A stretch of DNA of 13,339 nucleotides from Clostridia bacterium (GTDB taxonomy: Bacteria > Bacillota_A > Clostridia > Oscillospirales > CAG-272), in assembly GCA_017472105.1 (NCBI GenBank), contig JAFUQY010000415.1:1-13339 (forward strand), in the 5' to 3' direction. Under the pieces are notes generated by a model. The model ran no database searches and had not been told where the DNA came from. It worked only from the letters and a program-made list of their open reading frames with translations. The stretch's first letter is position 1. Each line of letters begins with the position of its first letter. The position numbers and the translations under genes are program-made. Of this stretch, positions 114 to 13,339 are shown one piece after another.

Positions 114-150
114 AACGTGCGGTTCAATGCAGAATGAATCGCCGGATGTT
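114..150 (+). terminator. Imperfect hairpin after the GH36-like gene, possible decayed terminator
   Basis: AACGTGCGG at 114-122 can pair with CCGGATGTT at 142-150, with one mismatch and one G-U pair. A small inner TTCA/TGAA pairing is also possible. The left arm is the same 10-mer (AACGTGCGGT) that forms the arms of the family B terminators at 7000-7047 and 7706-7754. No T-run follows, so termination may be weak or lost; the right arm runs into the start of repeat A. Confidence 0.35.
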
Positions 151-467
151 CCGTCAGCAGAAGCAAAGTAACTCCAAACGCGCCGTAGGCTGAGTTTACC
201 CAGGTAATCCAGTGACGCTAGCGCGACTGTTAGTGCCCGAAATACCCACATCTCGCCGCCGCAAGGCTGAGTTTACCGAGGGAAATGAGTGTCCCTTACA
301 ATAAAGGAAGATCGCTCCACCCAAAAACTGTACGGGTATGGCGCCCGCGGCGGGCATTTTCAAGGGGAACGCTTGAACGGCCGAGATCCCTAAGAGCCCG
401 GACGCGGAGGGTTCTTAGGCGCCCCCGCGAGGGTATAAATTAAATCTGAAAAGCGGAGCTTTTCTAC
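148..467 (+). repeat. Interspersed repeat family A, copy 1 (full length)
   Basis: This non-coding stretch fills most of the gap between the GH36-like fragment and the GH127 gene. It matches the reverse complement of 4672-4980 along its length and matches 13168-13339 over its first half. In order it holds: a first AGGCTGAGTTTACC block (187-200), an imperfect palindrome CAGTGACGC..GCGACTG (210-229), a second near-identical AGGCTGAGTTTACC block (264-277), a GGAAGATCGCTC block (306-317), a hairpin TTCAAG/CTTGAA (359-377), a hairpin CCTAAGAGCCC/GGGTTCTTAGG (389-419) and a terminal hairpin GAAAAGC-GGA-GCTTTTC (448-464). No open frame is credible. The left boundary is uncertain by about 30 bases. 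It could be a structured ncRNA gene, a long leader of the GH127 gene, or a non-autonomous mobile repeat. Confidence 0.85.
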
Positions 468-4537: not shown

Positions 4538-4566
4538 ATTATATCGCTTTTTGGGTGTAAAGTCAA
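4538..4566 (-). promoter_or_regulatory. SigA-type promoter of rny
   Basis: On the minus strand TTGACT (4561-4566), a 17-base spacer and a perfect TATAAT (4538-4543). Transcription should start near 4531, giving a leader of about 170 bases to the ATG at 4361. Repeat A copy 2 lies entirely upstream of this promoter, so it is not part of this transcript. Confidence 0.85.
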
Positions 4567-4671
4567 GATACTACGAAAAAGTTACGGGGGTATGGGGTGG
4601 TTTTTGTGAGGGTTTTGGGGTTCGTCTTACAGACGGTTGGAGGTTGACCTAAAGCGTTAGGAATCTGTATT

Positions 4672-4980
4672 GTAGAAAAGCTCCGCTTTTCGAATCTTAT
4701 TTGTAACGCCTGCGCGGCGGGCGCGAGAACCCTCCGTTGCCGGGCTCTCGATTCGGCAACCAGGAGTGCCTGGACCCAATGCCTCCGGCGGGCGGGGGAT
4801 TTGACAACGTGAAGCTGTGATTCTAAGCGATCATATCTTATCGCAAGGGACACTCATTTCCCTCGGTAAGCTCAGCCTGCCGGCGGCGAGACGAAATCGC
4901 ATGTGGCTCTGACAGTCGCGACGCGTCACTGGATTGCCCGGGTAAATTTCAGCCTGCGGCGCAAACTGAGATTTCCTTCC
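4672..4980 (-). repeat. Interspersed repeat family A, copy 2 (inverted, full length)
   Basis: The reverse complement aligns with 148-467 in the same block order: GCGCCGCAGGCTGAAATTTA, CAGTGACGCG..CGCGACTG, the second CAGGCTGAGCTTACCGAGG block, GAAATGAGTGTCCCTT, then a more diverged middle, a hairpin CCAGG/CCTGG (4760-4773), a hairpin CGAGAGCCC/GGGTTCTCG (4724-4750) and the identical terminal hairpin GAAAAGC..GCTTTTC (4675-4691). The two hairpins that differ from copy 1 in sequence keep their pairing. It sits in the long gap between the TSUP permease gene and rny, pointing the same way as rny. The part from 4980 to 5000 may still be related to copy 1. Confidence 0.85.
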
Positions 4981-6111: not shown

Positions 6112-6948
6112 ATGGAAATTATCAGATATCAGAATTTCGACGAAGAGCGCGCGCTGTACGGGGTACGGGATGTGACGGTGGCGGAATGCACCTTTGACGG
6201 ACCCGCCGACGGGGAATCCGCGCTCAAGGAAGCGGCGCATGTGACCGTGGAGGACTGCACGTTCCGTCTGCGCTACCCGTTCTGGCACACGCGGGATTTC
6301 GTTCTGCGCCGGAGCACGATGACGGACACCTGCCGGGCACCGCTCTGGTACGCGGAAAACGGCGTGATCGAGGACTGCACCGTGGAAGGTGTGAAGTGCC
6401 TGCGCGAATGTGACGGGATGACGCTGCGCCGGATGACGGTGAAATCCGAGGAGTTCGGCTGGCGGTGCCGCGGGCTCACGATTGAAGAATCGGACATGGA
6501 AGCGGTGTACTTTCTGTTCGAATGCCGGGATGTCACGGTGAAGAACCTCACGATGCGCGGGAAATACTCCTTCCAGTATGTGGAAAACATGACGATTGAG
6601 GACTCCGTGCTCGACACCAAGGACGCATTCTGGCACGCAAAGAACGTGACGGTGAAGAATTCCGTCGTGAAGGGCGAATATCTCGGCTGGTACTCGGAGA
6701 ACCTGACGCTCATCAACTGCAAAATCAGCGGAACCCAGCCGTTCTGTTACTGCAAGAACCTGACCCTCATCGACTGCGAAACGGACGGCTGCGACCTCGC
6801 CTTCGAGCGCTCCACGGTAAACGCATCGGTGAACGGTCACATCGTCTCGGTCAAGAACCCCATCAGCGGCAGAATCACAGCGGACTCGATCGGGGAAGTG
6901 ATAAGAGAGTTTGCGTCGGACTGCGTTGTTGAAGTGAGAGAAGAGTGA
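6112..6948 (+). CDS. DUF3737 family right-handed beta-helix protein
   Basis: A 278-residue protein made almost wholly of repeated turns of about 20 residues in the style 'a.nvtvedctf.g', for example AAHVTVEDCTFR, CDGMTLRRMTVK, CRDVTVKNLTMRG, VENMTIEDSVLD and AKNVTVKNSVVKG. The pattern recurs roughly a dozen times, as in parallel beta-helix folds, and the whole length fits DUF3737. There is no signal peptide, so it should be cytoplasmic. The biochemical role of the family is not known to me; the fold is shared with carbohydrate-active and scaffold proteins, but no catalytic residues can be identified. Many Cys residues fall at equivalent positions in the turns and probably stack inside the helix. 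The start has a GAGG site 6 bases upstream and the gene has its own promoter and a downstream terminator. Confidence 0.85.
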   Translation: MEIIRYQNFDEERALYGVRDVTVAECTFDGPADGESALKEAAHVTVEDCTFRLRYPFWHTRDFVLRRSTMTDTCRAPLWYAENGVIEDCTVEGVKCLRECDGMTLRRMTVKSEEFGWRCRGLTIEESDMEAVYFLFECRDVTVKNLTMRGKYSFQYVENMTIEDSVLDTKDAFWHAKNVTVKNSVVKGEYLGWYSENLTLINCKISGTQPFCYCKNLTLIDCETDGCDLAFERSTVNASVNGHIVSVKNPISGRITADSIGEVIREFASDCVVEVREE

Positions 6949-7050
6949 AGAGAGAAAAGTGAAGAGAAAAGGAAAATTTACTTCGGAAATTGAATGATCA
7001 AAACGTGCGGTTTTAGGCTGAAGTTCAGCTTTCGACCGCACGTTTTTTGA
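6935..7050 (+). repeat. Repeat family B, copy 1
   Basis: A purine-rich tract (GAAGAG, GAAAAG and similar), then ATTTACTTCGGAAATTGAAT, then a long hairpin (7000-7046). The same blocks in the same order occur on the minus strand at 7706-7825, so the two copies form a large inverted repeat around the acetyltransferase gene. The first bases of this copy overlap the last codons of the DUF3737 gene. Confidence 0.8.
7000..7048. terminator. Bidirectional terminator between DUF3737 and GNAT genes
   Basis: AAAACGTGCGGT (7000-7011) pairs perfectly with ACCGCACGTTTT (7035-7046) and is followed by TT. The loop contains GCTGAA-G-TTCAGC, itself an inverted repeat. The A-rich left arm supplies a T-run for the minus-strand acetyltransferase gene, whose stop is at 7051. 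Confidence 0.88.
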
Positions 7051-7705: not shown

Positions 7706-7754
7706 TCAAAACGTGCGGTCGAAAGCTGAACTCCAGCCTCAAACCGCACGTTTT
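7706..7754 (-). terminator. Terminator of the carboxypeptidase gene
   Basis: AAAACGTGCGGT (7708-7719) pairs with ACCGCACGTTTT (7743-7754), with smaller GCTG/CAGC arms in the loop. On the minus strand TTTTGATTTG follows the stem. It ends the ribF-carboxypeptidase unit. Confidence 0.8.
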
Positions 7755-7825
7755 CCTGATTCAATTTCCGAAGGAAATTTACCTTACTTCTTCCTTTTTC
7801 CCTCTTCCTTCTTACTTCTACTTAT
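7706..7825 (-). repeat. Repeat family B, copy 2 (inverted)
   Basis: Read on the minus strand it gives a purine-rich tract, AAATTTCCTTCGGAAATTGAAT and a hairpin with arms AAACGTGCGG and CCGCACGTTT, matching 6935-7050 block for block. Its purine-rich start covers the final codons of the carboxypeptidase gene, as copy 1 does with the end of the DUF3737 gene. Confidence 0.8.
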
Positions 7826-10129: not shown

Positions 10130-10155
10130 GATGGCTCCTGATAATTCAATAAACT

Positions 10156-10284
10156 CAATAAACTTTCAGTGCAGAAAACGCGGTTTTCGCTTCAGATTTT
10201 TTGTTTTCAATAAACCTTCAATGCAGAAAACGCGGTTTTCGCTTCAGATTTTTTTGTCTTTAATAAACTTTCAGTGCGAAAACC
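10156..10284. repeat. Family C tandem repeat, about 52 bp x 2 plus a partial third
   Basis: Units start at 10156, 10208 and 10260 with AATAAACTTTCAGTGC (small variations in unit 2). The first two continue with GAAAACGCGGTTTTCGC, a perfect 6-bp hairpin GAAAAC/GTTTTC, and TTCAGATTTTTT. The third, partial unit is the very end of the aldo/keto reductase gene and contains its last codons and stop. The array therefore looks like duplication of a gene end with its following hairpin. On the plus strand the hairpins with trailing T-runs look terminator-like, although the flanking genes are on the minus strand. Confidence 0.85.
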
Positions 10285-11318
10285 GGGCATACCTTCGTGC
10301 AGTAGCCGCAGCGGACGCATTTTGCGTCATCGGGAACGGCGCGGAGCTTCGGTTTTTCTTCCGTGATTCCGGCATCCGCGGCAAAGTCTCCGGCGAAGTC
10401 GTAGTGCGCTTCCTCGTCGTCATCGGTGACGGGCATGAGCGTGAGTGCACCTTCGCCGCAGCGCTTGACACAGGCTCCGCAGCCTTCGCAGTATTCTTCG
10501 ACATGGAGGGTGCGGTGCTTGCTGCTGAGGCGTTCGCGCATGCCGTCGGAGAAGCTGCCGTTTTTCAGCAGGGCGATGTTTGCGTCCACTTCGTCGAACG
10601 ACTGCATTCCGACCGCGGCGGCATCGATGTACGGCTTGTCCAGAACGAACCGGAGCGCGTCTTCGGCATTTCCGCTGAGATGTCCGCCGCCGAGGGCTTT
10701 CATCGCGAAGATGCCGATGCCCATGCCGTGCGCGTCAGCGAGAACGGATGCCATATCGGATTCCGTCCCGTCCGCGATGCCGATGCCCGCCATGTTGTAC
10801 AGGGGATGGCATACGTCGGGATCAAAGCCGTTGTTTTTCAGCCGGATCAGCCCTTTGACGAGCGCGCAGTGATGCGTGGATGCCCCGACAGCGCGGATGA
10901 TGCCCTTCTCGCGGCATTCAAACAGGTACTCGAGGGCGTCCCAGTGTCCGCGCAGGGTGTCGTAGGACTCCTGTTCGTGGAGCATGAACACATCAATCAC
11001 GTCGCGGTCAAGGGCGGTGCGTGCTTCCTCAACGGCTGATACGGCAAGCTCACGGCTCCACGCGTAGGTTTTCGTCGAGACCATGACGTCGTCGGGAGAC
11101 TTGCAGCGGTCCAGCGCGGCTTTGATGATGTGGTAGTTTTCGTAGTACTGTGCTGTGTCGATGAAATTGAGCCCGGAGTCGAACGCATACGCGAGGACGG
11201 CGGCACCTTCGTCAACAGGCAGATTCGCCTGCATCGGCGAGACCGTCAGCGAACCGACGGCGATCTTCGATACAGGCGGGAGACGGGGTGTGAGGACACT
11301 TGTCGGGATGCCCATCAC
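10260..11318 (-). CDS. Aldo/keto reductase with C-terminal 2x[4Fe-4S] ferredoxin domain
   Basis: The N-terminal 260 residues are an aldo/keto reductase barrel with the conserved catalytic residues visible: Asp in NFIDTAQYY (D54, then Tyr), Lys in STKT (K83) and His in FMLHEQ (H114). The C-terminus carries two bacterial ferredoxin clusters, CEGCGACVKRC (277-287) and CVRCGYCTKVC (334-344), each with the CxxCxxCxxxC spacing; about 46 acidic residues separate them, which is longer than in a compact ferredoxin. The fusion is common in anaerobes and may link a carbonyl or alcohol oxidoreductase to ferredoxin electrons; substrate unknown. The frame can begin at GTG 11318 or at ATG 11315; the ireB stop TGA overlaps both, so translation is likely coupled. 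Its 3' end forms the last unit of the family C array. Confidence 0.92.
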   Translation of the reverse strand: MMGIPTSVLTPRLPPVSKIAVGSLTVSPMQANLPVDEGAAVLAYAFDSGLNFIDTAQYYENYHIIKAALDRCKSPDDVMVSTKTYAWSRELAVSAVEEARTALDRDVIDVFMLHEQESYDTLRGHWDALEYLFECREKGIIRAVGASTHHCALVKGLIRLKNNGFDPDVCHPLYNMAGIGIADGTESDMASVLADAHGMGIGIFAMKALGGGHLSGNAEDALRFVLDKPYIDAAAVGMQSFDEVDANIALLKNGSFSDGMRERLSSKHRTLHVEEYCEGCGACVKRCGEGALTLMPVTDDDEEAHYDFAGDFAADAGITEEKPKLRAVPDDAKCVRCGYCTKVCPVFALKVY

Positions 11319-11694: not shown

Positions 11695-12942
11695 TCAGCC
11701 GACGTACAGGGGATATTTTTCGCAGAGCTTGGTGACTTCTGCGCGGATATAGTCGCGGCTGGCGTCGAAGTCCTTTGCTGCGAGACCGATCAGGTGGGCG
11801 AGGGTTTTCATGTCCTCTTCGACGAGACCGCGGCTGGTCACTGCGGGAGTGCCGATGCGGACGCCGCTGGTGATGAACGGGGACTGGGGATCGTTGGGGA
11901 TGGCGTTCTTGTTCACGGTGATGAGAACGTCGTCAAGGCGATGCTCGAATTCCTTGCCGGTGAGATCAAACGGTCTGAGGTCGCAGAGCATGAGGTGGTT
12001 GTCCGTGCCGCCGGAGACGAGATTGAAGCCTTCCGCGAGGAGACCATCGGCGAGAGCCTTGGCGTTCTTCACGATCTGCTCCTGATATGCCTTGAATCCG
12101 GGAGTCAGCGCTTCGCCGAAGGAAACTGCCTTTGCCGCAATCACGTGCATGAGCGGGCCGCCCTGTGTTCCGGGGAAGATCGCCTTGTCAATTGCCTTCG
12201 CGAACTCTTCCCTGCACAGAATCATGCCGCCTCTCGGACCGCGGAGGGTCTTGTGGGTGGTCGTGGTTACGATGTCCGCATACGGAACGGGAGAGGGATG
12301 GAGACCTGCCGCAACCAGACCCGCGATGTGAGCCATGTCAACCATGAACAGCGCGCCGTTTTCGTGAGCGATTCCGGAGATTCTTTCAAAGTCAATGACG
12401 CGGGGATATGCGGATGCGCCGGCGACGATGAGCTTGGGATGGTGTTCCTTCGTGAGGCGTTCCAGCTCGTCGTAGTCGAGGATGCCGTTGTCGTCCACGC
12501 CGTAGGGGATGAAGTTGTAGTTCTTGCCGGACATGTTCACGGGGCTGCCGTGGGTGAGATGTCCGCCGCACGCAAGGCTCATGCCGAGAACGGTGTCGCC
12601 GGTGTTCAGAAGGGCAAAGTAAACTGCCATATTCGCCTGTGCGCCGCTGTGGGGCTGAACATTCACGTGATCCGCACCGAAGAGCTTCTTTGCTCGCTCG
12701 ATTGCGATGGTTTCCGCCTTGTCGACGACGGCACATCCGCCGTAGTAACGCTTTGCGGGATAGCCTTCCGCGTATTTATTGGTAAGCGGGCTGCCCATTG
12801 CGAGAAGAACCGCCTCGGATACGACGTTTTCGGAAGCGATGAGCTCGAGCCCGCCGCGCTGACGTGCAAGTTCCTCGGCAACAACCGCGCCGATTTCGGG
12901 ATCAAAAGTAGCAAGGGTCCTGACCATTTCGTTGACTGCCAT
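11695..12942 (-). CDS. glyA: Serine hydroxymethyltransferase
   Basis: This PLP enzyme interconverts serine and glycine while charging tetrahydrofolate with a one-carbon unit in the cytoplasm. The start at 12942 (MAVNEMVRT) is fixed by GGAGGT 8 bases upstream; the frame stays open to 12966 but those codons include the ribosome site. The 415 residues match the family. Visible signatures are [53 protein letters not shown] and [14 protein letters not shown], whose Lys (about residue 231) binds the cofactor. A good promoter lies at 13008-13036 with a short leader of about 60 bases and no riboswitch. ireB and the aldo/keto reductase gene follow on the same strand. Confidence 0.98.
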
Positions 12943-12950
12943 AATGAAAA

Positions 12951-12956
12951 ACCTCC
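12951..12956 (-). promoter_or_regulatory. Ribosome binding site of glyA
   Basis: GGAGGT on the minus strand, 8 bases before the ATG at 12942. It decides that start over the upstream in-frame ATG at 12966. Confidence 0.9.
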
Positions 12957-13007
12957 GTAGGGGCAATGGAATACGTAGTTGAGCAGAGGAAAATTTCCCT
13001 ATATAAT

Positions 13008-13167: not shown

Positions 13168-13339
13168 GTTCCGTCAACAGAACCAGAGAAAACCAAACCG
13201 CGCCGCAGGCTGAATTTTATGTGGCAAATCCAGTGACGCGTCGTGACTGTCAGAGCCCGAAATGTCACAATCTCTCCGCCGCAGGCTGAGCTTACCGAGG
13301 GAAATGGGTGTCAGAAGCCCTGAAGGAAGATCGCTCACC
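13168..13339 (+). repeat. Interspersed repeat family A, copy 3 (cut by window end)
   Basis: Matches the first half of copy 1: GTTCCGTCA, CGCGCCGCAGGCTGA, ATCCAGTGACGCG, GACTGTCAGAGCCCGAAAT, then CCGCCGCAGGCTGAGCTTAC, CGAGGGAAATGGGTGTC and GAAGGAAGATCGCTC. The two GGCTGA blocks are 76 bases apart, against 77 in copy 1. The half with the covarying hairpins lies beyond the window. Confidence 0.85.

Follow-up and report, generated by a model that had tools for sequence, protein, structure and literature searches.

A family of structured, inverted-arm repeats, probably mobile and nearly confined to one genus of uncultured Clostridia

The window, the whole 13,339-nt stretch of clostridial DNA analyzed here, carries three diverged copies of one element that belongs to a large repeat family. 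The family is real, abundant and structured, it is probably mobile and, as far as sampled, it is nearly confined to one genus. Its arms covary, pair in inverted orientation, occur in high copy number in intergenic DNA, vary in presence at orthologous sites and enclose cores that are largely unrelated between species. We consider it reasonably likely that the family is an interspersed mobile element, non-autonomous and vertically persistent, of a single uncultured genus of Clostridia, with a layout like that of REPINs.

The copies occupy positions 148-467 (+), 4672-4980 (-) and 13168-13339 (+), here A1, A2 and A3, the last ending where the window ends. They share ungapped blocks in a common order (66 nt at 86% identity between A1 and A2, 58 nt at 88% between A2 and A3), and gapped alignment gives identities of 216/332 (65%) for A1-A2, 137/189 (72%) for A1-A3 and 120/178 (67%) for A2-A3. 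Both full copies, A1 and A2, close with an identical hairpin, GAAAAGCGGAGCTTTTC, followed by TAC (448-467 and 4691-4672). An earlier note on this DNA had described the three copies, their coordinates, their block order and the identical terminal hairpin, and was right on each count. A1 is flanked by a frame ending at 112, read by eye from the sequence, and by a GH127 gene; A2 sits between two genes; A3 begins beyond the start of the SHMT gene and has its other flank outside the window. A Pfam check of ten window frames found nine ordinary genes (GH127 glycosidase, RNase Y, TauE-like exporter, DUF3737, GNAT, D-Ala-D-Ala carboxypeptidase, RibF, aldo/keto reductase and SHMT) and one frame without a match. 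A 96-aa frame runs over A2 and an 89-aa frame, on the other strand, over A3, with no counterpart listed over A1.

Each copy opens with a head of two tandem, diverged modules of ~77 nt. The repeat is seen in A1 between 187-240 and 264-317 (61%, 77 nt apart), and likewise by alignment in A2 and A3. With approximate ends, the A1 modules lie at 148-222 (+), recognized from the internal repeat and by eye from likeness to heads in G849, the closest relative, and at 223-300 (+), recognized from the internal repeat and a match to the profile of the G849 core. Alignment and profiles assign two head modules to A3 (13168-13339, +), any arm of which would lie past the window end. The last ~145 nt of A1 and of A2, by contrast with the heads, form one arm of four hairpins, H1 to H4. 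The covariance model of the arm, R1, whose training set includes both copies, places the A1 arm at 325-468 (+; 103.1 bits, E 1.5e-25) and the A2 arm at 4671-4817 (-; 65.6 bits, E 2.4e-15). On the forward strand A1 shows H1 (TTCAAG..CTTGAA, 359-377), H2 (CCTAAGAGCCC..GGGTTCTTAGG, 389-419), a small H3 (CCC..GGG, 422-434) and the terminal H4 (448-464) followed by TAC, the reverse complement of which reads GTAG plus palindrome. On the reverse strand A2 has H2 (CGAGAGCCC..GGGTTCTCG) at 4724-4750 and H4 at 4675-4691, the latter terminator-like on the other strand in a scan. The hairpins are read from the sequence; alignment also supports H1, and covariation H2, H3 and, in A1, H4.

Relatives were reached by RNase Y identity, descending from class through order and family to a genus of 25 genomes in which the RNase Y of G849 is 93% identical. 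The RibF of the window shows 100% identity to a protein that NCBI assigns to a 'Clostridia bacterium' MAG. With A1 DNA as the query, G849 gave 19 places at E<=1, the best at 2.5e-25 and so beyond chance, and G848 gave 4 (best E 3.8e-5). Iterated profiles covered 30 stretches in the window and 16 loci of relatives. A search of the genus with R1 yielded at least 1002 arm matches at E<=0.1 in 20 of the 25 genomes, 18 of which have 8-102 matches (102 in G848, 100 in G850); as at most 121 candidates were scored per genome, the rich genomes are probably undercounted. Hence the abundance suspected in the earlier note holds for the genus of relatives, and the covariance-model search proposed there found homologues well beyond three copies. 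Among 295 family genomes, with 10 candidates scored in each, nine matched at E<=1e-5 and eight of these belong to this genus; the ninth, G747, has a single match, and its genus, a sister genus with one match in one of five genomes, is treated as marginal. Judged by RNase Y, four of the five match-free genomes of the genus rank among its most distant (76-79%), the fifth having no match to that protein; yet the distant G843 (78%), G845 (76%) and G789 (77%) have 30, 8 and 7 matches, respectively. A DNA search of 196 family genomes, with 3 candidates scored per listed genome, gave nothing at E<=1e-3; the same query did match in the genus, where more candidates were scored. Phage and plasmid records held no match at E<=1e-5, and an exact-pattern scan of IMG/VR viral contigs none. 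The one match in an exact-pattern scan of genome contigs was judged to be chance, element DNA reaching a best E of 0.11 in that genome.

The architecture of the family becomes apparent in the relatives. About 1 Mb fetched from G849, G848 and G854 gave 163 R1 arm matches in 63 sources. These assemble into 105 elements, of which 58 are inverted pairs and 47 are singles, the latter including some at contig ends. A pair runs arm, core, arm, with the terminal hairpins outside; the share of pairs among the elements is 24/35 in G848, 24/33 in G854 and 10/35 in G849. The comparison of cores and spacers used 150 of the 163 matches plus 35 others. Core length is mostly fixed within a species, at 106-109 nt in 18 of 20 G848 pairs, 204-206 nt in 12 of 20 G854 pairs and 169-174 nt in 4 of 5 G847 pairs, and is looser in G849 (220-277 nt, 9 pairs) and G842 (34-151 nt, 6 pairs). 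Inverted doublets with a conserved spacer length, a criterion for a REPIN, were thus found, clustering being less tight in G849 and G842. By blastn, the arms of each sampled genome match arms of at least three others, with G849 matched by 54 of the 55 arms of G848; core matches are limited to G847 with G854 and a single G848-G854 case.

The core profile of G849 also matches two stretches of element sequence in the window (best E 2.1e-11). The heads thus belong to a core of the G849 type, and on sequence comparison A1 and A2 look like half-elements, which is why no terminal inverted repeat is seen in the window. The absence of obvious terminal inverted repeats asserted in the earlier note therefore stands for the window copies only and fails in the relatives, where long arms stand as inverted pairs in 58 of 105 elements. 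These pairs, the tandem head modules and the four-hairpin arm had all been missed.

An arm of ~150 nt comprises at least four consecutive hairpins. When 18 arms were scored on a 29-pair structure, 91.6% of pair cells held a standard pair; shuffles gave 75.8%, and sliding the structure lowered the figure to 58.1% or less. Both sides had changed in 22 of the 29 pairs (13.7 in shuffles), and the covariation score was 0.454 (0.190 in shuffles); for a weaker measure, further pair types, the value of 42 against 37.1 was attained by 14 of 500 shuffles. These counts are not independent, since the copies share ancestry. Variants of H2 across copies include CACAAGAGG..CCTCTTGTG, CTTAAGAGG..CCTCTTAAG and CCAAAGAGG..CCTCTTTGG, and an A4+..T4+ pattern stands near the end of 133 of 150 arms. 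Taken as single sequences, A1 and A2 fold with ordinary energy (z -1.2 and -1.3); the evidence for structure is therefore the covariation, which strongly supports the structured nucleic acid proposed from the window. Small extra hairpins with C-GNA-G tips are nested in arms and heads at several G849 and G848 loci (CTTTCGCAGAAAG, TTCATCGGAGATGAA).

Wobble pairs add a direction to this structure. Under scoring that treats both alike, G.T outnumbers A.C by 60 to 2 on the outward strand of distinct H1 and H2 hairpins; for H3 and H4 together the count is 4 to 5. With more genomes the counts are 67 against 7 for H1 plus H2 and 2 against 6 for H3 plus H4; by distinct contexts they are 28 against 6 (p=0.0002) and 2 against 6. 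In the covariance-model alignment the G.T:A.C ratio is 61:4 for H2, left and right arms leaning alike, and 29:24 for H1. The bias is consistent with H1-H2 acting in a single strand that is read outward, and with H4 folding in either strand; it would be so for RNA and DNA alike. Quasi-palindrome correction may be a source of the compensatory changes, but it leaves the G.T strand bias in H1-H2 unexplained.

Genes in the relatives were called by a purpose-written script, which leaves out two loci that hold 7 of the 105 elements; among the other 98, one shares more than 60 nt with a called gene. The genes on either side of classified pairs are tandem, divergent or convergent in a ratio of 34:9:7, compared with 402:89:82 for all gaps of at least 40 nt in the three genomes. 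Singles between tandem genes are co-directional 15:2 in G849 (p=0.002; from all 163 matches, 15:3 with 150 matches), 4:3 in G848 and 2:2 in G854, or 22:7 overall with A2 of the window included (p=0.008). Free insertion does not predict the G849 bias, which counts against the mobile reading. Between some gene ends and elements of G849 (L099, L102, L112 and L116) an A-rich motif such as AAGAATAGAGAATAGATAA follows the stop codon; similar A-rich stretches stand after some arms and are perhaps a further interspersed repeat.

Where an arm is separated by at least 60 nt from a gene start that it faces, a promoter-like site (at least 10/12) stands in between in 36 of 70 cases; at the same threshold this is so for 3 of the 18 arms that face a gene end. 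Such sites occur in none of 150 arms and in 3 of 150 regions of 200 nt upstream of an arm, with means no better than shuffles; arms are without an evident promoter of their own. In the window, the promoter-like TTGACT-17-TATAAT (4538-4566, -, 11/12) stands between the A2 arm and the RNase Y gene, and it is kept in G849, where A2 is absent. The position of these sites argues against the arms being 5' leaders or riboswitches: with a promoter-like site downstream of the arm, at least those 36, and A2 likewise, are not 5' leaders.

Indeed, the RNase Y locus provides the empty site that the earlier note had suggested looking for in relatives. As alignment and gene-neighbor comparison show, A2 (4672-4980, -) is missing between the orthologous genes of G849; by script gene calls the gap measures 820 nt in the window and 238 nt without the element, and the promoter region is conserved between the two. 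Across 120 comparisons of conserved neighboring genes among G849, G848, G854 and the window, an element was present on at least one side in 24, in one genome only in 17 and in both in 7. This 17:7 result, in which one site may count in more than one genome pair, involves 15 distinct occupied gaps and is unchanged with all 163 matches. The pattern could in part reflect loss. Insertion ends are not fixed to single-base precision, and beside 53 pairs there was no direct repeat of at least 10 nt, shared words being no longer than between mismatched flanks, so that a target duplication, if any, is short. Insertion into palindrome centers, suggested by one or two cases seen by eye, was rejected, as mean inverted complementarity across the flanks of 46 pairs was 16.3 against 15.9 for mismatched flanks. 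One G854 pair (L140, ~12200-12960) is enclosed by a ~22-nt inverted repeat (GGCTTACAGCCGGGGGAGATGGG), as if inserted into a palindrome; this is not general.

The GTAG-like arm end led us to test mobilization by IS200/605 or RAYT enzymes. PF01797 is found in 8 of the 25 genus genomes; because this Pfam search missed RAYT-like genes a protein-query search was added, which gave RAYT-like proteins in 10 of the 25. Neither a Y1 nor a RAYT-like match is present in 12 of the 20 carrier genomes, while 3 of the 5 element-free genomes have one, in assemblies (MAGs) that may be incomplete. No arm lies near any of 11 Y1 and 19 RAYT-like matches (some of the latter being pieces of one gene) within ~1.5 kb on each side where the contig allows, and either mode of mobilization is thus without support. 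The arm-end CTAC, the complement of GTAG, is found in both window arms and in 14 of 43 arms in G849, 2 of 50 in G854 and 2 of 55 in G848; in G848 and G854 the tag is mostly CTTC or CCAC. GTAGGG-type palindromes, unlike the arms, stand downstream of 4 of the 10 RAYT-like genes inspected by eye; such palindromes follow RAYT-like genes at L213, L218, L221 and L222, some as inverted pairs, and seem to belong to a distinct, conventional REP system of this genus. One RAYT-like protein of G854 (L165, 1459-1959, -) scored 68.9 bits against NF047646, the NCBIfam RAYT model with a cut-off of 80, and its gene lies between murD-like and peptidase-like frames (names by reading). Within the fetched loci of about 1 Mb, no gene with at least two paralogues among those loci lies within 400 nt of an arm. 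A candidate autonomous copy in G698, with the order arm-gene-arm, encloses a sugar-kinase-like gene rather than a transposase, located between gyrA- and gyrB-like frames (names by reading), and was set aside. What was examined contained neither an excision product nor a mobilizer, in keeping with the non-autonomous, transposase-free element of the earlier note. The mobilizing enzyme is probably not a RAYT.

No Rfam family matched the window copies at E<=1, and at gathering scores five loci of relatives matched only a tRNA. A described family was not found in open-licence full texts either, and the lack of a named family remarked upon earlier is borne out to that extent. Bacterial MITEs are non-autonomous, intergenic elements with inverted ends, and they leave empty sites. 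The present family is similarly non-coding, with inverted ends and sites that are occupied in one genome and empty in another; unlike MITEs, it has no parent transposase or target duplication that we could find, and its ends are hairpin arrays whose sequence varies while pairing is kept. With REPINs and GTAG-tagged REPs (PMC3116915, PMC3733652), the likeness extends to high copy number, intergenic position, inverted doublets of set spacer length with singlets beside them, compensatory stem changes, G.T pairs in stems and, in the window arms, a GTAG-type end. REPINs, however, are built on one palindrome of 20-40 bp, whereas here arms of ~150 nt carry at least four hairpins and whole pairs span ~370-580 nt; the tag is not kept in relatives, no RAYT-like neighbor was found, and the spacer, of up to 277 nt, is largely unrelated between species. 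The family thus behaves as a REPIN would, yet does not show the RAYT association by which REPINs are defined. Among Firmicutes elements, BOX of Streptococcus pneumoniae (125 copies, boxA-B-C modules, target duplications) and SPRITE (AAAA/TTTT ends, terminator-like stem) are described as likewise modular and structured, with copy numbers of about 100 as here (PMC3049150). Compared by layout description only, BOX differs in that inverted arm pairs with differing cores are found here and target duplications were not seen (PMC3049150).

These comparisons bear on how the family should be explained. Were it a multi-copy structured non-coding RNA, transcripts running outward from the core would carry H1 and H2 as functional hairpins and terminate at H4, in agreement with the arm covariation, the outward G.T excess, especially in H2, and the A-tract/T-tract pattern near most arm ends. 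We regard this as unlikely, for H1 shows no clear bias in the model alignment, neither the arms nor their upstream regions have an excess of promoter-like sites, the cores are largely unrelated between species, and both full window copies fold with ordinary energy; furthermore, a folded DNA strand would give the G.T bias too, in copies that share ancestry. A host-useful terminator or insulator, kept between a gene end and the next promoter, would suit the promoter-like sites between arm and gene and the co-directional singles of G849, and H4 does resemble a bidirectional A-tract/T-tract terminator. This function is in our view quite improbable as the basis of the family: in 17 of 24 comparisons of orthologous sites the element occurs in one genome only, 9 of the 50 pairs with a classified gene context lie between divergent genes, termination needs neither core nor H1-H3, co-direction is not seen in the few G848 and G854 singles, and the one G854 pair put through a terminator scan yielded no entry. 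Least probable of all is a true REP/REPIN family mobilized in trans by a RAYT since lost or missing from many MAGs. The inverted doublets, set spacer length and compensatory changes are as in REPINs (PMC3116915), the complement of both window arm ends reads GTAG plus palindrome, and RAYT-like matches occur in the genus; against this weigh the arm-free surroundings of the Y1 and RAYT-like matches, the many carriers with neither, the element-free genomes that do have one, the changed tag of G848 and G854, and the different palindromes that follow RAYT-like genes.

We therefore return to the non-autonomous mobile element as the favored reading. In such an element the arms would be the ends, recognized as folded single strands by a mobilizing enzyme; the core would be a passenger or spacer, and one-arm copies such as A1 and A2 would be halves of pairs. 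H4, with its A-tract and T-tract, might double as a terminator and so make copies tolerable between genes. It is tempting to go further and to propose a new kind of mobile unit, in which folded multi-hairpin arms (H1-H2 on the outward strand, H4 on both) are recognized by a non-RAYT enzyme and enclose interchangeable cores, each species having its own; this we put forward as a tentative possibility. With this family, the Clostridia would possess a repeat class with REP-like copy numbers and units an order of magnitude larger. With arms held by structure and cores that differ, a search for a new mobilizing enzyme becomes possible, as does testing whether such repeats serve as terminators or RNAs. 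There is also a practical warning: several arm matches lie at contig ends, these repeats being places where MAG assemblies break.

The window contains two further repeats. A 106-nt inverted repeat (6941-7046 and 7708-7813, 86% complementary) flanks the GNAT acetyltransferase gene; part of each of its arms is itself palindromic (AAAACGTGCGGT..ACCGCACGTTTT), and a related 24-nt stretch lies at 111-134, just before A1. At 10155-10285, between RibF and the end of the aldo/keto reductase gene, are three tandem units of ~52 nt, a 24-nt part of which is 88-92% alike.
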